Shown: one piece after another, positions 6,897 through 22,501 of the stretch
How positions within the stretch are numbered: position 1 is the stretch's first letter
Layout of the letters: the number at the start of each line of letters is the position of its first letter
Virus record (IMG/VR): IMGVR_UViG_3300025620_000026
Location: 1-31,565 of that record
Reading direction: 5' to 3' (one strand)
Source of the DNA: a virus
DNA length: 31,565 nucleotides
Translations under genes and position numbers: made by a program
Notes under the pieces: model-generated
Told to the model about the DNA's origin: nothing
Database searches by the model: none
The model's input: only the letters and a program-made list of their open reading frames with translations

Positions 6897-9800
6897 TTAA
6901 TTTTTGTTTTTTCTTTTTTTATAATCTTCGTAAGCAGATGAACCAGATCTTCTTTTTCTACCTCTTTTCTTTTTCTTTTTTAACTTTTCTAATTTATCGT
7001 CAGCTTTAGACCCAACATCCCAAGTGTTCCAACCTAAGAAATTAGCAAACCTTTGCCAAGCCTTATTTTCTCTGTTTAAACTAGCTCTAACATTGTTTAT
7101 TTTATTAAACAACCTATCTAAAGGTATGTTAGTTCCAGCCGCAACAACATTACCAAAAGCTTGATATATAGGATTACCTATTCCAGGACCATAATCAGCT
7201 ATAGCTTCTTTGTTAAATTTCCAAGTTTGAATACCTGAGTATAGCTTTCTAGCTTTACTACCTATTGGTGGAGACAAGTTCATAAACTCAATAACAGTGT
7301 AAGTGTGATCAGCGTTCCAGCCTTTGTCTTCTTGTGCTTTAAATTTTAATAAAATATTTTTTATTGTTGACAAACCAGCACCATAAACACCAGTACCTCT
7401 TAATATAGTATCGACCATACTGTTAGCCATTCTAGCACCTTTTTTGTCTAGTATTGCAGCATCTTCTTCGTCATCTTCAAAAGCTAATGCAAATATAGCG
7501 TTTTGTAAAGCTGTAAAAATTAAGTTTTGTACAAAACCGTAATATGCTATTTTAGATATATGTGTTTTAGCATCACCTCTACCATTATATAAATCAAGTA
7601 TAGATTTTTTAATCAACCTAGTATACTGCATTGGTGTGTTTTGAAATGCTAATATTAATCTACCTAATGGACCAGCTTGTTGTTGTGATATTAAATCTGG
7701 TCTAGATGATTGCTGAGATTTTTCAGATGTTTCAGCAAAATCTTCAAAAGCTTTTGTTTCAGCTTGCTGTTTAGTAAAACCTTGTTTAGTATATGTTTTA
7801 ATTCTGTTTCTATAAAAAGTAGCACCACCAGATGCAATAGCAAAACTATCCGCTAATTGAGTAGGTGTAAAACCTAATCTAAGTAGTTCTTTTAATAATG
7901 CTCCAGGAGTATTACCTCTACCTCTTATTGATTTAGCAAGTTCAGCATGGTTGACATCTGTTTGTAAACCTGATCTTCTTTGCTTTAACATGTCTGAGTT
8001 AAATATGGTACTAAAGTCTTCTATGTATTGATCAAAATTTAATACAGCACTAGCGGCTTTAATAGGGCTATTGTCTGACCAGTTTATAAAGTTAACCATT
8101 GATATTGTTTGTAAAACAGCAGACCTCATATTAAAGAACATAATAGCTCCTACAGAGTTATTCACCCAATTCTGGAAAGTATTAACTAATTTATTGTTAC
8201 CTGTTGTCCTATTTGTGCCATTTTCCATTCTCCACAGAATATCTTCAAGCGCAGACCTAAAATCATCACCATATATAGCCTCAATTTTATTTAGATTTTC
8301 TTTACTAAATATTTCATTTTTATTGTTGATCCATTCACCTAAATATCTTTTTCTATTTTCTTTAGATGTTAAATCGCTGATATCACTAGCTACACTACCA
8401 TCTAACCAGTTTTCACCTGGTTTTATGTAGTTAGTGTCTTTAGACATGTTGTATACACTGTCTGCGTAAGCTTTTATATCAGAATATTTTTCTACAAAGT
8501 TTATTAATGACTGAGCTTCGTTTTTACTCATACCGGGTATGCTATAACCGTTTCTATTCCATATGTAAACCCTAACAGCATCTTGCATGAAGTACTCACC
8601 TTTGTTAAGCTTTTTGTTTAAAGATTCATTAACACCAGGGTATTGTTTTTTAATTAAATTAAAAGCATCTACATAAGCTTGCTTAGCTCTATTCATAGCC
8701 GCGTTAGCTTTAGCAAAAGGTTTAAACAATCTTAATTCAAAAAACTTCATTTGAAGCTCTCCTCTTTTACCTTTAGCTAAAAACTGATATATTAAACCTT
8801 GAAAATCTTCAGCACCAGGTGGTATAAACCAACTGCTTTTAACTCTAGCTCCTTTAGCTTTAGCTGCTGCAGCATTAAATCTTTTTTCTGATTTAACACC
8901 TTTAGTTCCTTCTAGTATATCGTTAAATATATCTGAGTTACCTTTTTTACTAAACTGAAGCTTAGCTTGTTCAACATTAGGATTAAGGTTAAGATGATTT
9001 AATGTGTCTTGTACTGCTTTTACGTTTTTATAAGCATCATCAGCAAAGTAAAAATCATTATAACCTTCAGCTGCTTTTTGAGTTATCCAATCAGCTTTAG
9101 CAGATGGTCGTCCGTCTTCTAAACCTGTAATGTTTTCTATAGGTATATTTAAACCAATACCTTTTAAAAACGCGTGTATAGCATATGCAGCTTCTTGTGG
9201 CCTAGCAGTTAGTACAAATATATTCTTGCTTCCAAACTTGCCCTGTCTTTTTAAAGCAAGATCAGCTAGTGGTCCTTTTTTACCGTCAATAACTTTAGTA
9301 AATTCACTAAAGTCAAACTCTGCGCCAGCAGCTTCTAAGTCGGCTGACTTTAAAGCAAACTCAGTAGCATCTATTTTAATATTTTTACCATCAGGCATTT
9401 TTACTAATATCTTGCTATTAGTTCTAGCTAATGTATCATCAAAATCAAATACACTAATACCTTTAGGTGTTTTACTAAATTGAATTTCTGCTTTTATTAT
9501 ATTAGCAGACTTGTTATATTCTGTTTTAGAGTATTGTAGCCCTGTATCTATAATTTTACCTGTAGAAACATCATACAAACGTAAACCCGTGCCTGAGTAC
9601 CTGTTATCAGTAGGTTTAGAACCTACTTTGTGATCTATACCCATAGCTGATTGAGTTCCGTCTTCTCTAAGTTTTTTATCAATTAAATCTGGTAAAACTA
9701 GCGTTGCGTAATTTTCTAACTCTGCAACTAAAGTTTCTTTGTTACCAGTTATAACATAGTCATAAACTAAACCTTTTATATAGTCAGCTGGTATCATATG

Positions 9801-12800
9801 CTCTAACACACCTGGATCATTTTTCTTATCTGAAAAATTTTTAAATGTTAATACATTATCATTTTTGTCTAACATTAGAAATTTAGGACCAGCAGCTGCT
9901 TTACCTACACCAACCATGTTACCAAATTGAGTTACTAAAACCCATTGTACTTGTTGATATGTTAAATCACCATCTACAATACCTTTTCTTAATACATCCG
10001 CAAGCTTAAGCAATATACGTCTATCTTCTAAACTACTGTTGTATAATTTTTTTACAAAAGCTTTTTTACCGTCATCATCAAGTTTGTTAAACGGATTACC
10101 GTAGTACCAGTTCTTTTTGGTTATGTTACCATCTCTAAAACCATCTTTTGTAGATTCTATATTTAAGTTTCTGTTTGTGTCTTTAGTATCTTTAAATGCA
10201 GAGTAATATGCTTTATTTCTTTTACCATTGCTTTTAAACTCTGGTATAGCTTTTGCTTCAGATTTTTTAATTTCTAAACCAACATTATCACTAACCTCAA
10301 AACCCGCTACTCTAGCTGGATTTGTAACACCTTGATATATACCTCTTATAAACTCACTTTTAGTTAATTTTTTAGATATATAGCTTATAGCTTTTCTAGC
10401 GCTATTAACACCGTCTAAACTATTTAAATCTACTATACTTTTAATACCATACTTAGCATTTAAAACTTTAACAGTAACCTCGCCTTCACTTATTTTTGTA
10501 TGTAAATTATCTATAGCAAAATCAAGACCTTTTTGTTTTTCTTTAGCAAAAGTATTTTTTGCCATCCAAGGTTTCCCTAATTGTTCAGCTATCTTTCTAG
10601 CATCTTTTATATCAGAAGCTTTTAGTACTTGTGATATAGCGTTAACTAACCACCTTTCGTTAGTTCTTTCTATATAGTTAGTTCTATATACATGCTTAGC
10701 ATATGGAGTTTTTAAAGCATCTACAACAGCTTTACTTTGTTTAGAATCATACATTGTTTTGCTAAACTGAATAGTAGTATCAAAGCCTCTACCTTCAATT
10801 GCTTTTTTATCTAAACCTACATTTATATCTTTTATTAATTGCTTAAGCTGTATGTCTGCAATTGCAACCCCACTCATTTCAGCAACTTCAAAAAGCTTTT
10901 TAAGAAACTTACCGTCTGTCAATAAATGACTAACTTCTATTTTATTATATTCAGCCGCTATTTCTTTGGCAAGCTTTAACTGTTTAGCTTTAAGTGTAGT
11001 ATATTTACCTAATGTAAAGTAAGCACCCCACTCTCCTCTAGTAGGCGCTGTCATTTCAAAGATAGCGTTACCTTGAGCTGTTTTTTCTCTATCTAATTGT
11101 TTAAGCTTAAATAGTTTACCGTAAGATTTTTTTATAGAACTTAACGGAAACGATTTAACAGCTGTTTCATAACTGTCGTTAATAAACTCTTTGTATTTTT
11201 CACTAACAACCAAGTTACCTTCTTTGTTAGATATTTCACCCATCTGATCTTTTATAGTTCTAGATATATACTTGTCAACATTTTCTTCTATGTTCTCTAT
11301 TATTTTATCAGTTGTCAAATGTACTCTACCGATGTTTTTAATTAACACCATACTTACGTCTCTTGAAACATCTTTCTTAACAGTTTCGCTATAAAAGTCT
11401 TTATTTTTTCTATCTTTAAGTTTGTCAAAGCTAGTTAGTTTTCTAGCCTCTTTACCTTGATCTACGTTAGATACTTTATTTGTTTTATTGCTTACTGATT
11501 TTTTTAAAGTACCATCTTCTCTGTTTAAACCTTCATTAGCAGCGTCTTTAGCAAAGTATGTAAACACTTCTTTAGATCTTTCTTTAAAAAAAGTATTAAT
11601 ATAAGCAGCTACGTTGTTATATTTTTGTTTTTCAGATTCAAAATCTTGAACTAAACCAACTACGTTTCTGGCCTTGCTATTTGCTTTTTGACTAGGTATC
11701 TTATCATACAACATCATAGCAATCATGTCTTCTTTTTTATCTTCAAAGACTTGTTTTTGATTTAACGTATAGTTACTACCTTCTTTTAAACTATTAAAAA
11801 CAGATTCAGCCATACCTCGGTATAACATAGCTATTTCAAAACCAGCTTCTGTTTTATTTTCATTATTATTATATATATCATTAACTTTCTGAGCTTCAGC
11901 TGAAGTTTGTGATTTTTGTAACCCACCTTCCTGCGCTAGGTCAACACCACCTATAGCCGCTTTAGCCTCAGAGCTAAGTCCTTTTGTATTCTTGCTGTAA
12001 TCTTTAATGAAGTTGTAAACACCTTGTCCATCTTTAAATGATATATTATCAAAACCTTTACCTACAAAAAAGCTTTTTATAGCGTCTCCGGCTTTACCCA
12101 TAGCGCTTTTGTTAAAGTTAACTTTTTCTTGAGCTATAAGATCTGAAAACACTTGAGCGTATTCAGTAGCAAACTCTTCTTTAGTATTGTAACCTCTGTT
12201 TTTCATTTCAGCGTCTACAATTTTTCTATTCTTACTACTCATCGCTCTTCTAATACCTTTAACCATCTTAGATTGAGCAGCGACATCACCAACTTTAGCA
12301 TTCATTACTTTATGTAAAAACTCATGCTTAGCTACATTTACTTGACCTGTTTTTCTAGCAACTTCTTTATTTACAAATATCTTACCATTTACAGTAAAGC
12401 CAGCTACCTCACCTTTGTTATTTGTAAACTCTTGTTTTGATTTTTTATCAACCTCGCTTAGGTTTTCCATAGCAGCCTCTGTTTCTAGAGTGCTATTTAA
12501 TATGTTTGTTTCTAGGTTTTTAGCTGATTTTTCTGATTTAACAGTAGACTCTAAAAACTCTATGTTTTCAGCAAGCTTCATGTCACCAATCTTTTGCTTA
12601 GCTTTATCGTATTTAACTAAAAATCCATCTGAAGCCACCTTGTGTTCAGCTTCGGTTATTTGACCTGTTCTTAGTTTTTTATTTAATTCAGTAATTTTAA
12701 AAGCAGTAACATCTGATAAATCATTAAAGCTTTCTAGTTCTGATATTTGCTTACCGTTTAGGCTATTATATATTTTGTTACCTTTTTGAACTTGATCAGC

Positions 12801-14015
12801 AATACTCATTTCTAAGCCATCAATCTTGTTTTGTAAACCTTGTCTTACTGTTTCGTCTTTAGTTGTATTTAACTTAACTCTTAGCTGAGTCATTTCAGCT
12901 ATGTCAGTGTCTAGCTTGTCACCATCAACAGCACCTCTAACTTGATTCATAGCTTTAACGCTATATGTTCCAGCTACCATACCACCACCACCTATAGCAC
13001 CTTGTAGACCAGCTTCTAAACCTTCTTCACTAGTTATAGCTTCTAAAAAAACTTGTCCTGCTTTAGACTCTTCATTTGTACCAGCAACTCTACCTAGTTC
13101 ATCGTTAACAGCATCAATACCATGTTGTGTTATCTCAGTTACAGCTTCAGTACCACTAGAGGCTAATAAACCTAAAGCACCTCTGGCTTTTGAACTATAC
13201 ATTACCTTAGATAAAATAGATTTTGGTATTAATTTACTAGCGCCTCTAGTGTAAGGGTTTAACTGTGCAGCACCGTAAGCCACTGTAGCTAAAGTACCTA
13301 TACTTTCTGATGCCATGCTAGCTACACCTAACGTAACAGGTGTGACGTTATCAGCCTCTCCGCTCGTTATTAACTCTTCTAAAGACATACCTAGGTTCTC
13401 AGCTTTTTGCTTGTTGTACTCCGCGTAATTTCTAGCTGTAAAATCAGCAAAATAACCCATACCAAAAGTAGCTGTACCATAAGCAACACTACCTATCATA
13501 TTTGTTATAGCGTTAACTGTACCAGCAGCCGCTCCACCAAGGTCACCTTTTTTCCAACTATCAATTATACCTTTAGTTTGCTTCATCTCCATTTGATCCT
13601 CTTCGTATCTAGCTAAAGCTTCTAATGTATTCTTACTACCAATATCACCACCTAGCCAAACATCTTTATTTTCTAGGTTTTCTTGACCATATATAGCGCT
13701 AAAAACAGCGTTAGTTGTTATGTCTTTAGCAGCGTCTTTACCACCATCATCACTATAAAACTCTCCTATGTCACTAAAGTTTTCAAAAAGATTACTAAAA
13801 GAGTTTTTGATTGATTGCCAACTACTTATCTCTGGTAATTCCGATGAAGTATTTACCGAATTGGAGTCCGTATCTTCTGATCCCGTGTTTGACTCCACTT
13901 GTACAGGATCCGATGTCTTTCCCGGCGAGTTGTAAGATTTTATAACAGTTGCTATATTCTCTTCAGGCTCACCAGCCTCGATCATGCGCTGCACGATTTT
14001 TTCTAGTTCGTTCAT
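6897..14015 (-). CDS. Giant multidomain internal virion protein (metallopeptidase-like and HAD phosphatase domains)
   Basis: A 2372-residue protein, probably packaged in the capsid and ejected with the DNA. Residues 1-60 are acidic and Ser/Thr-rich. Residues 155-355 hold several Gly/Ala-rich hydrophobic segments (for example AVAYGTATFGMGYF) that could insert into membranes. An HExxH site (HEFLH, 564-568) with glutamates at 613, 614 and 618 suggests a zincin peptidase. Residues 1517-1680 are a HAD phosphatase: DFDDT 1524-1528, LTARP 1602-1606, FADD 1657-1660. Residues 1730-2180 are a long helical region ending in a hydrophobic segment (2156-2179). The tail (2340-2372) is Lys/Arg-rich. Short (I/L)Q(F/Y)SK motifs recur at domain borders (1082, 1493, 1511, 1686). 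The start immediately follows the upstream stop. I saw no RNA polymerase signature. Confidence 0.88.
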   Translation of the reverse strand: MNELEKIVQRMIEAGEPEENIATVIKSYNSPGKTSDPVQVESNTGSEDTDSNSVNTSSELPEISSWQSIKNSFSNLFENFSDIGEFYSDDGGKDAAKDITTNAVFSAIYGQENLENKDVWLGGDIGSKNTLEALARYEEDQMEMKQTKGIIDSWKKGDLGGAAAGTVNAITNMIGSVAYGTATFGMGYFADFTARNYAEYNKQKAENLGMSLEELITSGEADNVTPVTLGVASMASESIGTLATVAYGAAQLNPYTRGASKLIPKSILSKVMYSSKARGALGLLASSGTEAVTEITQHGIDAVNDELGRVAGTNEESKAGQVFLEAITSEEGLEAGLQGAIGGGGMVAGTYSVKAMNQVRGAVDGDKLDTDIAEMTQLRVKLNTTKDETVRQGLQNKIDGLEMSIADQVQKGNKIYNSLNGKQISELESFNDLSDVTAFKITELNKKLRTGQITEAEHKVASDGFLVKYDKAKQKIGDMKLAENIEFLESTVKSEKSAKNLETNILNSTLETEAAMENLSEVDKKSKQEFTNNKGEVAGFTVNGKIFVNKEVARKTGQVNVAKHEFLHKVMNAKVGDVAAQSKMVKGIRRAMSSKNRKIVDAEMKNRGYNTKEEFATEYAQVFSDLIAQEKVNFNKSAMGKAGDAIKSFFVGKGFDNISFKDGQGVYNFIKDYSKNTKGLSSEAKAAIGGVDLAQEGGLQKSQTSAEAQKVNDIYNNNENKTEAGFEIAMLYRGMAESVFNSLKEGSNYTLNQKQVFEDKKEDMIAMMLYDKIPSQKANSKARNVVGLVQDFESEKQKYNNVAAYINTFFKERSKEVFTYFAKDAANEGLNREDGTLKKSVSNKTNKVSNVDQGKEARKLTSFDKLKDRKNKDFYSETVKKDVSRDVSMVLIKNIGRVHLTTDKIIENIEENVDKYISRTIKDQMGEISNKEGNLVVSEKYKEFINDSYETAVKSFPLSSIKKSYGKLFKLKQLDREKTAQGNAIFEMTAPTRGEWGAYFTLGKYTTLKAKQLKLAKEIAAEYNKIEVSHLLTDGKFLKKLFEVAEMSGVAIADIQLKQLIKDINVGLDKKAIEGRGFDTTIQFSKTMYDSKQSKAVVDALKTPYAKHVYRTNYIERTNERWLVNAISQVLKASDIKDARKIAEQLGKPWMAKNTFAKEKQKGLDFAIDNLHTKISEGEVTVKVLNAKYGIKSIVDLNSLDGVNSARKAISYISKKLTKSEFIRGIYQGVTNPARVAGFEVSDNVGLEIKKSEAKAIPEFKSNGKRNKAYYSAFKDTKDTNRNLNIESTKDGFRDGNITKKNWYYGNPFNKLDDDGKKAFVKKLYNSSLEDRRILLKLADVLRKGIVDGDLTYQQVQWVLVTQFGNMVGVGKAAAGPKFLMLDKNDNVLTFKNFSDKKNDPGVLEHMIPADYIKGLVYDYVITGNKETLVAELENYATLVLPDLIDKKLREDGTQSAMGIDHKVGSKPTDNRYSGTGLRLYDVSTGKIIDTGLQYSKTEYNKSANIIKAEIQFSKTPKGISVFDFDDTLARTNSKILVKMPDGKNIKIDATEFALKSADLEAAGAEFDFSEFTKVIDGKKGPLADLALKRQGKFGSKNIFVLTARPQEAAYAIHAFLKGIGLNIPIENITGLEDGRPSAKADWITQKAAEGYNDFYFADDAYKNVKAVQDTLNHLNLNPNVEQAKLQFSKKGNSDIFNDILEGTKGVKSEKRFNAAAAKAKGARVKSSWFIPPGAEDFQGLIYQFLAKGKRGELQMKFFELRLFKPFAKANAAMNRAKQAYVDAFNLIKKQYPGVNESLNKKLNKGEYFMQDAVRVYIWNRNGYSIPGMSKNEAQSLINFVEKYSDIKAYADSVYNMSKDTNYIKPGENWLDGSVASDISDLTSKENRKRYLGEWINNKNEIFSKENLNKIEAIYGDDFRSALEDILWRMENGTNRTTGNNKLVNTFQNWVNNSVGAIMFFNMRSAVLQTISMVNFINWSDNSPIKAASAVLNFDQYIEDFSTIFNSDMLKQRRSGLQTDVNHAELAKSIRGRGNTPGALLKELLRLGFTPTQLADSFAIASGGATFYRNRIKTYTKQGFTKQQAETKAFEDFAETSEKSQQSSRPDLISQQQAGPLGRLILAFQNTPMQYTRLIKKSILDLYNGRGDAKTHISKIAYYGFVQNLIFTALQNAIFALAFEDDEEDAAILDKKGARMANSMVDTILRGTGVYGAGLSTIKNILLKFKAQEDKGWNADHTYTVIEFMNLSPPIGSKARKLYSGIQTWKFNKEAIADYGPGIGNPIYQAFGNVVAAGTNIPLDRLFNKINNVRASLNRENKAWQRFANFLGWNTWDVGSKADDKLEKLKKKKKRGRKRRSGSSAYEDYKKRKNKN
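8958..9467 (-). other. HAD phosphatase domain bounded by QFSK motifs
   Basis: This interval encodes about residues 1517-1686 of the giant protein. It carries the ordered HAD motifs: DxDxT (D1524, D1526, T1528), the Thr motif in VLTARP (T1603), a Lys (K1640) in the motif III position, and FADD (D1659, D1660). This resembles polynucleotide 3'-phosphatase and nucleotidase-type HADs. The domain is framed by IQFSKT at 1511-1516 and LQFSKK at 1686-1691. Substrate is unknown; nucleotide or nucleic-acid 3' phosphate is a reasonable guess. Confidence 0.82.
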
Positions 14016-18088: not shown

Positions 18089-21000
18089 TTAGTCGTTATT
18101 TTCTTTTAAAGTTATAGTTATGTTAGCTGGTGCAACATCACCTGATATACTTGCCATGTTACCAATACCTTGAACCGAAAACTCTTCAGTGTCAATATTA
18201 TCTAGAGTAGTAGCTGTACCGTGTATAAAATTAAACCATTTACCTTCTTTACCTTTAAACTCATTAGCTTTACCTGATTGTAAGTCTGTTTCAACAGCTG
18301 TGTTAAACCAACCAAATTTAGTTATGTTGTTATAATATTCAGTGTCACTTAAATCTTGTTTCCAATAAGGTTGAGATCCTTCATAATTAAGAGTTTTAAA
18401 ACTTTTAACCACGTCTGGATTATCGTTAAATATTAACTTTATACTAGAGTTGTATTGTACTCCATAGAAATTATTTCTAACTTCGTTATCATGAGAATAC
18501 ATTTCTCCATTTTTAAACGTGTAATACATATTGTTTAGTGATATACCATTTTCTGGTATATATGACTTTCTACTAGGCCAACCAGCTACGTTTTCTTTAA
18601 ATGAAACAGTATCATCAGCACCTCTAACTGTATTACTTTGTAGTGATATGTTATATGATCCTTTTTTATCGTCAAAAGAACCTATAGCTATTTGACTAAC
18701 CGCTAGTTTGTCCGTAAAGTAATCAGCCATACCTTTAGGTGATAAAGGTTCTAAACCATCTCTAGACAACCTTAAAACAGCTCCTCTGGCTCTGTCAGTA
18801 AAATAACTTCTAAAACCATACTTAGCAAAGCTTTCGGGGTTTAAACTTATACCAAAGTCACCTACATAAGGCATTGATTGACCTAGAACAGCACTGTTAG
18901 ATGTTATATTAGCGTTACCATCAGCGTTAAATAACGCGTCTTTGTTTGTTAATACTCTTAAAACTTTGTCTTCACAAAAAACAGTAACATCAGTGTCTCT
19001 AGTATTAAGCTTTTGTATACTACCATACTCTGGATTAAGGTCTTTAGTTATAGATTCAGCCATTATAAACTGATTTAATCTATTTACACTAGCTGTAGAG
19101 TTAAATATACCTGAAAAAATTAAACCATTTGTTTTTACCTCTTCGTTGTATTGTTCAGCAACAGTACTACTAGCTTTAACACCTTTACTTATTTTTTTAG
19201 CGTTATAGTCGTCTCTTATTCTGTTAGACTCAACACCGTTGGCAAAAGAGTAGCAATTATGATAATCTAAAGCTATATCGTCACCATGCGTGCTTATAGC
19301 GTAAGCATTACTAGCTTCGTAATATATGTCTAACTCAGCAACTTCTTTAGGTTCAGTCTCCCATATACCTGGATTATCCGTGGTAAAACCATCTAAGTCG
19401 TCTTCGTCTACGTAAGTTGTACCTATTTGTATAGGTGTATGATATTGATAACCATCTATTATATTAGTAATATTATCTTCTGGAGCCCATTGTATTGGTT
19501 TGTCTAGTTTTATCGTAAATATTATAACTCTTGAAGACGCGAAAGTACCTGTTCTTCCACCACCACCACTTTTTCTACCTTTATACATTATAGCTCCACC
19601 TCTTCTATATCCTTTTATTTCATAAACTGTAGAATCAGGATCACCAGAAAACTTTATGTAGTTACCAATTGTTTGTAATGAATTAACAAAATCTTTATGT
19701 TCAGGAGCTACTGTATTACCAAATTTAATCCACTCACCCCAAACAACGTCATCTTGACCATTAGAGGTGTTTCTACCTTTTTTACCAAAATTATGAAAAG
19801 CTAACTCAACCACACTCTCACCTTGTCTTATTCCATAACCCTGAGTGTTAACTATAACTGAGTCAGATACCTCTCCTAAGTCTCTATTAACTTGAAGGTC
19901 TCCTTCTCCACCTAAATCTTTCCACCAATTAAATTTCTTAAACCTAGGTATAAACCAATCAGCAGTGTGATCCGTGCCAGTTCCTTTGTCTTTATTTCTC
20001 CAGTAATTATATCTAGTGCTTTGGCCTCCACCGGTGTTAGCGCCTAGCGATGTACCCGCGTCATTTCCAACTTGCCAAAAATTATTTTGAGATAATATTC
20101 TTATTTCATCTATGTTATTAAACTTTAGTATATTTTGCTCTAAAGTAGAATCTCTATATATTTTAGCAAAAAACCTTCCTTGAAATTCTGGTTTTAGTTT
20201 TCTAACTTTCTGAGCAATCTCTACTGTCATAGAAACGCTTTGTATTGTGTTGCCATCTCCTACTGTACCTAACCAATTAACATCAGACTCGTCAAATGTT
20301 TTTTCTATGTTTATTTGCCAGTATTTGTTTTCTGGGCAATTAGTGCTTGTTCCAACAAACTCTAAGTTACTAGCAGCTCCTTCGTATACTATGTTAGCTA
20401 TGTCGTAGTATTTTGTTACGTTGTTACCTTTTTTAATTCTAACCATTAAATCAGTTAGCGTGTGTATTGAGGCTGTAGATAAATCAATATCATCACCACT
20501 ACCAGTAGTACCACCAAAATGTGGTTTCCATAAAGTTCTTGGTATTCGTATTTTTGTAGTGCTTTTTTCAGGATAACCACCGTCTATAAATAAATTACCA
20601 TTACTATCTGCCGTAGCTATACCTTTAGATACTTTTTGTATTGTTAAAAAATCAGGTGCATCGTTTTCTATAGCTATAACTTTGTATCTAGCTTCTTCTT
20701 CTACAAAAGCATCACTATCGTGTTTCTTTTTAAGTATTATAAAAGTTTCGTCGTTAACTTTGTTTCTTTCTGCGGACGGAAAAGCTAACCAAACGTTACC
20801 ATCTTCAGCGGGATAATGTCTATCCATTGCTAAATTATAGTACTCAGCTGATGTTTCTTTTAAAAAGTATTTATAATGCGTAGCCCATAACGGCGGGTTG
20901 TTTAAAAGTTTTACTTGTAAAATATTCCAATTTACAGCTTGTGATTTAGGTAGTTGAATTGACCCAGTAGTATCTGTTAATACTGGTGTTTCTCTACCAA

Positions 21001-22501
21001 ACTCATCTCTATAAACCACACCAACTTGATATGTTCTCATAGATTTAACTGACTTACCTGGTGTTCTAATACCGTAATCTGTACTGTCTGATTGTATTAT
21101 TGAAACACTAAACTTAGGTGTTATCTCTGCGTTATTAACATCTTTAATATCATATTGTTGAGTATAATTACCGTAAAGTAACCTATTAGCCGTAAACTCT
21201 TGAGCTTTAGCTTTTTTAGGAACATTATCCCAAGGCCTAAGCAACTGATTAGATGGTAATATCTTGTATATTATTTCAGATTCTATAAGCATAGAGTTGT
21301 TAGTCCACTCTTCGTCTTGATCTTCAGGTTTTCCTTTTAAACTTTTTACTGTATAAATATTAGTGCTACTATCTTCTTTATATAATATATCAACTTCAAC
21401 TACATCTTTAGGCATGTAGCTAGTTATGAAATTAGATATAGTTAATTTCTTTAAAGAATTAACCATACCTTTATTAAAACCTTTTTTAGGTGCGTAATCA
21501 AATTCACTTGGCAAAAAAGCAACTTGACTAAAAGGACCAATAGCGGAGTACTGTCCATCATCGTACTTATATCTATATGCAAATCTAGGAAACTTAAATT
21601 CAAACAAAGATTTATCTTCCATTAATATAACTTTCCAGTCTTGAGTACCAGTAACTATACCGTCAGAAACTGAATCTAGGTTTAGCTTAAACGAGTTTGG
21701 TGAAAAAGAAAGTAAATCTATAACAGTAGCTATAACCTCATCATCTTCGCTATCATCTAGTATTGTAAACTTTAATCTATCACCAACCTGAAGATTCATG
21801 TTGTGTTGAAATGTAAAGTTGCTATCAGAATCAGGGTGAGCACCAGGTGGTAAAGCTTCTCCACTACCGTCTACAAAGCTTTTTGCTATACATACACTCT
21901 CTACTATACCTGACCTAGCAGATGCTGACATAGATATAGTTGGTGCTTGTATCGGTGATTTCTTTATAACAGTTACATCATCTAATGTAAAATTATAAGT
22001 TGCTGTTGAGTGTGCTGTTGTTAACGCGGTATGCGTCGTGAAGTTTGAAGAACCTGCTTTAAATTTTTTAATATCAACAGTTTTAGGTTCTGATCTGTTA
22101 TCTGTAAAAAATAATAAACCTTCTATTATGTTAATACCAGTTACTAAGTTGTTTCTACTTAAATCTAAAACACCTGTAGTGTCAACTAGAACAGGTGAAA
22201 CTGTTTTTGAATATTGATCATATTCTACTATAGCATCAACTGAAGTACCAGCTATAAGCCAATATATTTTATCATTAGCTGAATCTCTACATGATCCTAT
22301 ACACTTAGCCCCGTCTATACCTATAGCTGAAGCGTAAGCTAGTTTATTACCGAGAACGTTTTGAATAGAACCCACGTCATCACCCTCTGAGCTGGCTACT
22401 TGTACGTTTAAAGCGTCTCTGTATTCACCACTAGGAACTAACCTTTCGTCCAGGTCTTTGTTCATTCTACCCGAGCGAAAATCTCGTTTAATTTCTGGCA
22501 T
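18089..22501 (-). CDS. Tail hub / packaged-DNA stabilisation protein (P22 gp10-like)
   Basis: A 1470-residue virion protein. The N-terminus has FRSGRMNKDLDERLVPSGEY (8-27) then RDALNVQV and VGSIQNVLGN. I recognise this as the start of the 'stabilisation protein' family found in many marine podovirus-like contigs, equivalent in place to P22 gp10, T7 gp12 and the muzzle-type protein of crAss-like phages. Residues about 60-160 alternate short beta repeats (IYWLIAGTSVDAIVEYD, GLLFFTDNRSEPKT) that fit a beta-propeller. The remaining 1200 residues are mixed beta domains, much longer than P22 gp10 (about 470), so extra tail or receptor functions may be fused. It lies between connector and fibre genes, three bases from the former. 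Confidence 0.86.
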   Translation of the reverse strand: MPEIKRDFRSGRMNKDLDERLVPSGEYRDALNVQVASSEGDDVGSIQNVLGNKLAYASAIGIDGAKCIGSCRDSANDKIYWLIAGTSVDAIVEYDQYSKTVSPVLVDTTGVLDLSRNNLVTGINIIEGLLFFTDNRSEPKTVDIKKFKAGSSNFTTHTALTTAHSTATYNFTLDDVTVIKKSPIQAPTISMSASARSGIVESVCIAKSFVDGSGEALPPGAHPDSDSNFTFQHNMNLQVGDRLKFTILDDSEDDEVIATVIDLLSFSPNSFKLNLDSVSDGIVTGTQDWKVILMEDKSLFEFKFPRFAYRYKYDDGQYSAIGPFSQVAFLPSEFDYAPKKGFNKGMVNSLKKLTISNFITSYMPKDVVEVDILYKEDSSTNIYTVKSLKGKPEDQDEEWTNNSMLIESEIIYKILPSNQLLRPWDNVPKKAKAQEFTANRLLYGNYTQQYDIKDVNNAEITPKFSVSIIQSDSTDYGIRTPGKSVKSMRTYQVGVVYRDEFGRETPVLTDTTGSIQLPKSQAVNWNILQVKLLNNPPLWATHYKYFLKETSAEYYNLAMDRHYPAEDGNVWLAFPSAERNKVNDETFIILKKKHDSDAFVEEEARYKVIAIENDAPDFLTIQKVSKGIATADSNGNLFIDGGYPEKSTTKIRIPRTLWKPHFGGTTGSGDDIDLSTASIHTLTDLMVRIKKGNNVTKYYDIANIVYEGAASNLEFVGTSTNCPENKYWQINIEKTFDESDVNWLGTVGDGNTIQSVSMTVEIAQKVRKLKPEFQGRFFAKIYRDSTLEQNILKFNNIDEIRILSQNNFWQVGNDAGTSLGANTGGGQSTRYNYWRNKDKGTGTDHTADWFIPRFKKFNWWKDLGGEGDLQVNRDLGEVSDSVIVNTQGYGIRQGESVVELAFHNFGKKGRNTSNGQDDVVWGEWIKFGNTVAPEHKDFVNSLQTIGNYIKFSGDPDSTVYEIKGYRRGGAIMYKGRKSGGGGRTGTFASSRVIIFTIKLDKPIQWAPEDNITNIIDGYQYHTPIQIGTTYVDEDDLDGFTTDNPGIWETEPKEVAELDIYYEASNAYAISTHGDDIALDYHNCYSFANGVESNRIRDDYNAKKISKGVKASSTVAEQYNEEVKTNGLIFSGIFNSTASVNRLNQFIMAESITKDLNPEYGSIQKLNTRDTDVTVFCEDKVLRVLTNKDALFNADGNANITSNSAVLGQSMPYVGDFGISLNPESFAKYGFRSYFTDRARGAVLRLSRDGLEPLSPKGMADYFTDKLAVSQIAIGSFDDKKGSYNISLQSNTVRGADDTVSFKENVAGWPSRKSYIPENGISLNNMYYTFKNGEMYSHDNEVRNNFYGVQYNSSIKLIFNDNPDVVKSFKTLNYEGSQPYWKQDLSDTEYYNNITKFGWFNTAVETDLQSGKANEFKGKEGKWFNFIHGTATTLDNIDTEEFSVQGIGNMASISGDVAPANITITLKENND

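Follow-up and report, generated by a model that had tools for sequence, protein, structure and literature searches.

Five cargo proteins of crAss001 (gp45, gp46, gp47, gp49 and gp50) have been found by mass spectrometry (PMC10172136, in part), and a general proposal for polyvalent proteins is that their own zincin-like peptidases process them (Iyer et al., 2017; PMC5512222, in part). We compare with these systems a 2372-amino-acid (aa) open reading frame (ORF), P0001, which lies on the minus strand (6897-14015) of the virus record IMGVR_UViG_3300025620_000026 from IMG/VR; the whole 31,565-base stretch is called the window here. We lean modestly towards reading P0001 as a polyvalent virion-cargo protein of a crAss-like phage that would deliver a gluzincin together with a HAD phosphatase of the polynucleotide 3'-phosphatase type. 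A first-pass annotation of this DNA had joined an HExxH peptidase-like and a HAD phosphatase module in one internal virion protein; its span (8958-12326) does cover the stretch between the HExxH and a point shortly beyond the HAD domain, but the gene is twice as long. Our analysis goes beyond that annotation in the C-terminal region, a motif at the module borders and a kinase nested in the phosphatase of some relatives.

Results

The peptidase-like and phosphatase modules recur together

Relatives were gathered in two sets. The first came from searching viral contigs with the HAD alignment (best 80 of 389 relatives analysed) and the second from a scan seeded with a kinase-bearing relative (best 80 of 209 analysed); all family counts given below are counts in these samples. 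The pooled set comprises 115 proteins that are complete, non-redundant and no shorter than 1900 aa; it leaves out L001, L006 and L010, which duplicate the window or L003, and also L021, open-ended ORFs, shorter proteins and near-duplicates. A scan of bacterial and archaeal genomes returned 16 relatives, all metagenome-assembled by title.

P0001 and three aligned relatives all carry both the HExxH and the HAD motifs, and an HExxH stands 700-1300 residues before the HAD domain in 108 of the 115 pooled members, the window copy included; by chance, the pattern arose in 23 of 23,000 shuffled 600-residue windows (0.001 per window). Among the seven misses, L160 and L181 read EELFH, L121 reads HEKAGH, L172 is a counting artefact (HEVLH is present, and the HAD start was mis-set), and no HExxH was found in the full-length members L072, L073 and L080. 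L192, too, has EELFH in place of HExxH; the EELFH zincins of L160, L181 and L192 are perhaps dead peptidases. The HEFLH (564-568) and the full HAD motif set (1524-1660) named by the first-pass annotation were both confirmed, and conservation of the catalytic residues in relatives, a check that it had proposed, proved complete in the 44 zincin and 70 HAD domains aligned. Both modules are real by conservation, and their pairing is repeated across a large protein family of uncultured crAss-like phages.

As separate observations, stand-alone ORFs of 123-173 aa in metagenome-assembled genomes (L109, L110 and L111) match the HAD profile, and contig 3300025131_000066 holds two loci in opposite orientation (L143 and L145) that encode kinase-bearing proteins of 3450 and 3520 aa; since these share one contig, two copies of the protein may occur in one phage.

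The zincin domain carries the residues expected of a gluzincin

In 44 aligned zincin domains, H564, E565, H568 and E618 are the sole invariant columns, the set expected of a gluzincin; the several downstream Glu ligands suggested earlier narrow to one, E618. The AlphaFold model of the domain (pLDDT 84, pTM 0.84) places the HExxH in one helix (model residues 93-106) and E618 in a second (144-160). Re-alignment of Foldseek candidates gave Z-scores from 6.5 down to 2.4, the top one below the tool's safe level; among the 28 matches listed, 26 are by title lethal-factor-type toxins, Zmp1/PPEP-1, YbeY, collagenases, MATCAP or selecase, and the catalytic part of lethal factor stands in row 8 (Z 5.5). 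An HExxH lies at the same sequence place in other relatives that the zincin profile does not recognise, and the 49 N-terminal parts of alignment A8, which runs through the zincin, have a mean column identity of 13%. The zincin fold is thus supported by the model, short of proof and less firmly than the HAD fold; the domain would probably be catalytically active in the window's protein.

A five-residue motif marks the module borders

The motif [IVLMA][QK][FY]S[KR] was counted in three border windows, namely 300-530 residues before the HAD domain ('mid'), within 80 residues before it ('pre') and within 25 residues of its end ('post'). The 115 proteins hold 117 copies, of which 109 fall in these windows (35, 26 and 48, respectively); shuffles confined to the same windows gave a mean of 1.8 copies and a maximum of 6 in 500 runs, and the reversed motif gave 0 copies there. 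The narrower form [IVLM][QK][FY]S[KR] occurs in one of 225 other first-set plus-strand ORFs of at least 200 aa, and this one is the first half of L021, the gene with the frame slip; we rejected fission after the motif copy as the origin of that split gene, because a three-frame reading shows a frame slip. Border copies are found in 57 of the 115 proteins, over 25 of 59 greedy C-terminal clusters, and in 35 of 35 multi-copy proteins all border copies share their second letter (13 all Q, 22 all K).

We regard it as possible, and hold it tentatively, that the motif is a processing site at which the zincin would cut its own chain, freeing the modules in the virion or in the host. Consistent with such cleavage are the concentration of the copies at the borders, one of them in a low-confidence linker of the model, the uniform second letter and the presence of the motif in 48 of 75 pooled proteins with this zincin type vs. 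9 of 40 without it (32 of 45 vs. 1 of 15 in the first set, the association being weaker in the larger set); self-cleavage would also match the general proposal for polyvalent proteins (PMC5512222, in part). However, 58 of the 115 proteins have no strict border copy, and once kinship is considered on the first-set tree the association with the zincin type comes down to just 3 supported independent pairs and is not significant. The agreement of the mid and post letters on that tree (21 of 21) covers only 2 independent switches, so kinship may explain it, and when any second letter was allowed, uniformity was lacking in 11 of 34 first-set multi-copy proteins. Moreover, border copies are kept where the zincin is degenerate (three in L160, three in L181 and two in L192), which speaks against simple self-cleavage; processing and docking are therefore equal readings.

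In the docking reading, to which we give the same tentative standing, the motif would be a structural or assembly element, that is a strand or docking peptide for the portal, a chaperone or a neighbouring module, and would stay uncut. Its retention beside degenerate zincins fits this role, as do the segments of one crAss001 cargo protein that are bound inside the tail and at the portal (PMC10172136, in part), but the copies lie in differing sequence surroundings and one falls in a model stretch with pLDDT below 50. The idea that polyvalent proteins generally carry the motif was weakened: P1 DarA, DarB and DdrB have no loose match and N4 gp50 has two, four proteins being few.

The HAD domain resembles polynucleotide 3'-phosphatases

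D1524, D1526, T1528, T1603, R1605, K1640, D1659 and D1660 are each kept in 70 of 70 aligned HAD domains, and the domain would very probably be an active phosphatase. In the predicted structure of residues 1503-2372 (pLDDT 78.8, pTM 0.66), re-alignment placed chains of T4 Pnkp and bacterial Pnkp1 at ranks 1-5 of 991 (Z 13.8-12.4, rmsd 2.3-3.2), headed by the T4 Pnkp phosphatase 5uj0 (Z 13.8, rmsd 2.3 over 126 residues). The 50 re-aligned matches listed cover model residues ~8-188 at Z 9.7-13.8 and are nearly all named as HADs or HAD-containing enzymes. Structure prediction, also proposed in the first pass, was thus clear for the HAD fold (Z up to 13.8) and weaker for the zincin (best Z 6.5). 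PHROG 415, 'polynucleotide kinase', touches 60 of the 70 members at E ≤0.1 (best 1.8e-8).

The alternative is a generic HAD phosphatase with a host nucleotide, sugar phosphate or phosphoprotein as its substrate; it would play no part at nucleic-acid ends, and its likeness to Pnkp would be mere HAD likeness. Arg176 of T4 Pnkp is important for 3'-phosphatases of this type. The residue aligned with it, 1535, is K in 39, N in 15, Q in 8, M in 5 and R in 2 of the 70 members, and because this position is not conserved, the T4 contacts are not all kept. Other HADs follow closely in the re-alignment (Z 9.7-12.1), where the non-Pnkp match at rank 6 (Z 12.1) is tied with rank 5 (12.4), and they head Foldseek's own ranking, in which Ceg4, class C acid phosphatase and Lem4 come first (E 0.09 or worse) and no Pnkp appears among the 50 matches listed. 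Further, hhalign of the HAD domain with T4 Pnkp covers motif I alone (31 columns, probability 39), PDB sequence searches with the domain gave nothing convincing, and two other families are touched, DUF2608 by 50 of 70 members (best 4.9e-5) and PHROG 1238, 'phosphoheptose isomerase', by 30 of 70 (best 1.8e-5). On the other side stand the five leading Pnkp ranks, the PHROG 415 matches of 60 of the 70 members and the Pnkp-like kinase that is nested in this very domain in relatives. We consider the generic alternative rather unlikely, and polynucleotide ends a slightly better than even candidate for the substrate. The 3'-phosphatase guess of the first-pass annotation thus gains from the Pnkp ranking, PHROG 415 and the nested kinase, and loses by the Arg176 position and the Foldseek list.

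A kinase is nested in the phosphatase of some relatives

In 27 of 78 HAD-bearing second-set ORFs, HAD motifs I and II are separated by an insert of ~195 residues that contains a Walker A motif; such a nested kinase is present in 19 of the 115 pooled proteins. Pfam gives AAA_33 (4.7e-17) and Zeta_toxin (2e-13) on it, and a profile of 22 inserts searched against PDB finds 4gp7, 4jst, 4mde and 4gp6 first (1.4e-6 to 2.4e-6; file name metallophosphoesterase), which we take to be the kinase domain of Clostridium thermocellum Pnkp. Further matches of this profile are zeta toxin 1gvn (1.8e-4), PezT (1.6e-3) and the T4 kinase 1ly1 (1.9e-3), and hhalign with the kinase part of T4 Pnkp extends over 152 columns (E 3e-7, probability 93). 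A Pnkp-like kinase and a HAD phosphatase together argue for work on nucleic-acid ends.

The nested kinase could instead be a zeta-toxin-like sugar kinase hitting cell-wall precursors, with the HAD domain in the same pathway. Some polyvalent proteins and MuF fusions of phages have been described with zeta-toxin-like kinases (PMC5512222, in part), one relative in BFVD (A0A218MLT5) is labelled UDP-N-acetylglucosamine kinase, and the Zeta_toxin, 1gvn and PezT matches point the same way. However, AAA_33 scores higher, the four presumed Clostridium chains rank first, the T4 kinase part aligns over 152 columns and the partner domain is Pnkp-like; we consider a sugar kinase improbable.

The C-terminal region moderately resembles the ends of polyvalent proteins in predicted fold

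A BFVD search with the model of the HAD and C-terminal region gave 57 matches at E < 0.001. The four at the top are sequence relatives, A0A218MMX7, A0A218MLT5 and A0A218ML07 (uncultured virus) and A0A7S9STY3 (Virus NIOZ-UU157), which are 33-49% identical to the modelled part and, A0A218MLT5 apart, are named uncharacterized; many later matches are long phage proteins at 10-15% identity. Among the 50 matches listed, 9 have polyvalent-type names (PolyVal, MuF or LPD, the large polyvalent protein-associated domain) with E from 2.8e-7 to 3.4e-4. The likeness of the C-terminal model to polyvalent proteins is thus real by E-value and moderate by TM-score. LPD18 occurs in 2 of 60 middle regions (best 8.9e-4) and not in the window, and the C-terminal region has one hydrophobic stretch, at 2160-2179.

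P0001 has unrelated enzymatic domains, zincin-like and HAD, co-conserved in one chain, and it lies among late virion genes. We call it a polyvalent protein because of its C-terminal likeness, architecture and gene position; the 'polyvalent layout' of the first-pass annotation fits the latter two and, moderately, the C-terminal fold.

Apart from these modules, a Glu-His pair at 1405-1406 (window 9798-9803), often EHxxP, is kept in at least 90% of 60 proteins while the middle region is otherwise poorly conserved; the pair may mark a third enzymatic module.

Gene position and phage context

The late operon on the minus strand of the window runs from portal, virion structural proteins and a crAss-type muzzle through four smaller genes to P0001 and a 398-aa ORF, and two ribonucleotide reductase genes lie on the plus strand. 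The muzzle C-terminal family PF25729 scores 44 bits in the window (cut-off 27) and was found in 13 of 13 related records tested, 12 of them above cut-off, vs. 0 of 14 controls. Named matches to the muzzle are mainly phages of Flavobacterium, Cellulophaga, Tenacibaculum and Maribacter, and from these nearest named phages and the titles of related metagenome contigs the source is probably an uncultured, marine crAss-like phage. The genes neighbouring P0001 recur in many first-set loci, and homologues of the 393-aa protein likewise mostly lie directly upstream (some loci are incomplete). The positions of all features are collected in Table 1.

A 68.9-kb contig (L002) carries a P0001 copy that is 100% identical and encodes tail fibre proteins, a terminase, GroEL and a primase/helicase. 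A KLDG motif of ligase type is present in a 284-aa ORF on the longer contig that bears the identical copy. Ligase-like KLDG ORFs under the RNA_ligase cut-off were seen on two crAss-like contigs (L093, 7791-8645, minus strand; and L194), and a search with PF09511 matched no record, controls included.

At or near the same slot as P0001, phi38:1 gp101, Panino CDS0069 and Gundel_1 gp74 are large proteins of cultured phages that none of the HAD, zincin and C-terminal profiles matched; Maribacter phage Panino CDS0069 (L088, 20697-26186), 1829 aa and downstream of the muzzle genes, is annotated as a tRNA methyltransferase. Against phage records, tblastn with the HAD domain alone gave nothing convincing, and with one relative the best E was 0.1-0.3. 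The crAss001 polymerase gp50, used as a query against six relatives in a search that had no positive control, gave no match.

Table 1. Positions of P0001, its modules and motifs, and two genes of its surroundings in the window
Feature	Window position	Strand	Basis or remark
P0001, 2372 aa, putative polyvalent cargo-like protein	6897..14015	-	between muzzle-side genes and conserved 398-aa gene
N-terminal region, residues 1-468, very variable	12612..14015	-	alignment A8
Gluzincin-like domain, residues 469-704	11904..12611	-	predicted fold and invariant residues
HEFLH, residues 564-568	12312..12326	-	conserved motif
E618, presumed third zinc ligand	12162..12164	-	invariant 44/44
Variable middle region, residues 705-1510	9486..11903	-	near-invariant Glu-His pair at 1405-1406
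Border motif IQFSK, residues 1082-1086, 'mid' site	10758..10772	-	motif pattern
Border motif LQYSK, residues 1493-1497, 'pre' site	9525..9539	-	motif pattern
Border motif IQFSK, residues 1511-1515, just before HAD	9471..9485	-	motif pattern
HAD phosphatase domain, residues 1517-1683	8967..9467	-	re-aligned fold closest to T4-type polynucleotide 3'-phosphatase
HAD motif I DFDDT, residues 1524-1528	9432..9446	-	conservation
HAD motif II TAR, residues 1603-1605	9201..9209	-	conservation
HAD motif III K1640	9096..9098	-	conservation
HAD motif IV DD, residues 1659-1660	9036..9041	-	conservation
Border motif LQFSK, residues 1686-1690, 'post' site	8946..8960	-	inside model stretch 1685-1690, pLDDT <50
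Helical C-terminal region, residues 1691-2372, well conserved	6900..8945	-	fold like ends of phage polyvalent proteins
393-aa protein directly upstream of P0001	14016..15197	-	homologues in 44/82 first-set loci
crAss-like muzzle protein (late virion operon context)	18089..22501	-	family match

Discussion

P0001 is, by analogy, likely to be a virion protein, and it would probably be injected with the DNA, as its gene position and the analogy with crAss001 and N4 suggest. We propose that it is synthesised late, along with the structural proteins, is packaged, and leaves the particle before the genome or together with it, and that the helical C-terminal region may serve packaging or ejection. The gluzincin-type metallopeptidase would most likely process the polyprotein itself or a neighbouring virion protein, self-processing being at least as likely as action on a host protein. 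The HAD domain could remove 3'-phosphates from the ends of nucleic acid that host defence has broken or that broke during entry, a ligase then sealing the breaks, and in a subset of relatives the nested Pnkp-like kinase might also prepare the 5' ends. The border motif would mark the module junctions and may be a processing or recognition site.

Several results, together with the HExxH exceptions and the HAD comparisons given above, weigh against this reading. For the zincin, Foldseek with the domain model gave no match better than E 3, PDB sequence searches gave nothing convincing, and in several of the best re-aligned rows the match is to the N-terminal lobe of lethal factor (chain range 48-260), which we take to be non-catalytic. 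The named polyvalent proteins in BFVD match at TMq 0.22-0.48, all under 0.5. Neither the window copy nor any of the 85 first-set ORFs has a P-loop kinase in its HAD domain, and RNA_ligase matches lie below cut-off and in 2 of 13 records. A BLAST match to any neighbour gene of the window was found in just 40 of 78 second-set loci, and P0001's own segments have no Pfam family above cut-off. For whole P0001, neither Pfam and PHROG scans nor tblastn against phage records returned a convincing match, as might be expected if its HExxH and HAD motifs were chance patterns in a fast-evolving filler protein, but the invariance of the motif residues in 44 zincin and 70 HAD domains and their pairing in 108 of 115 proteins leave that explanation with practically no probability.

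Were the cargo reading of P0001 true, the phage would bring an end-healing enzyme in with its DNA, and repair of host-defence damage could begin ahead of phage gene expression; the border motif would offer concrete sites for the self-processing suggested for polyvalent proteins in 2017, or for another reader. A more far-reaching version, which we put forward as speculative and improbable, is that the polyprotein is split into its modules at a five-residue code that the sites share and that evolves concertedly, and that a partial or complete end-healing enzyme (with the nested kinase in some members) mends the breaks of defence nucleases at entry, before expression.

Comparison with known systems

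T4 Pnkp (PseT) and bacterial Pnkp1 have the same HAD fold and motif set, and some relatives of P0001 also have a Pnkp-like P-loop kinase. Unlike T4 Pnkp, the HAD domain of P0001 sits inside a 2372-aa protein of the virion operon and does not conserve the Arg176 position, and whereas the T4 kinase (3-157) precedes the phosphatase motif (from 165), that of the relatives is nested between HAD motifs I and II.

Polyvalent proteins are likewise large and multidomain, lie beside late genes and have a zincin-like peptidase (PMC5512222, in part); some proteins with polyvalent-domain names match the C-terminal model of P0001, and LPD18 is shared by the two relatives mentioned. The main text of PMC5512222 uses the words 'phosphatase' and 'crass' 0 times, and no HAD, nested polynucleotide-type kinase or repeated border motif was found in the passages compared. 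The virion RNA polymerase of N4, gp50, is also a giant ejected protein in which an HExxH domain (HELVH at 2228) is followed by a large helical C-terminal region (PMC12633501, in part); unlike P0001, it carries an RNA polymerase, and it has no DxDxT by pattern.

The cargo genes of crAss001 lie, like P0001, downstream of the muzzle gene (PMC10172136, in part), and gp47 (2341 aa; L090, 6120-13145) has, like P0001, one HExxH (HEAFH at 2157); because of this HEAFH, a zincin may occur in other crassvirus cargo. The five cargo proteins have no DxDxT by pattern and no demonstrated homology to P0001; the loose border motif is absent from gp45, gp46, gp47 and gp50 and occurs once (IKFSR) in gp49. By title and abstract opening, in mainly open papers and with bioRxiv preprints outside the search, we found no description of a zincin plus HAD architecture, and BFVD already contains the relatives, as viral proteins that are uncharacterised. 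Taken singly, polyvalent proteins, zincins, HADs and Pnkp are already known; the motif at three module borders is new here.

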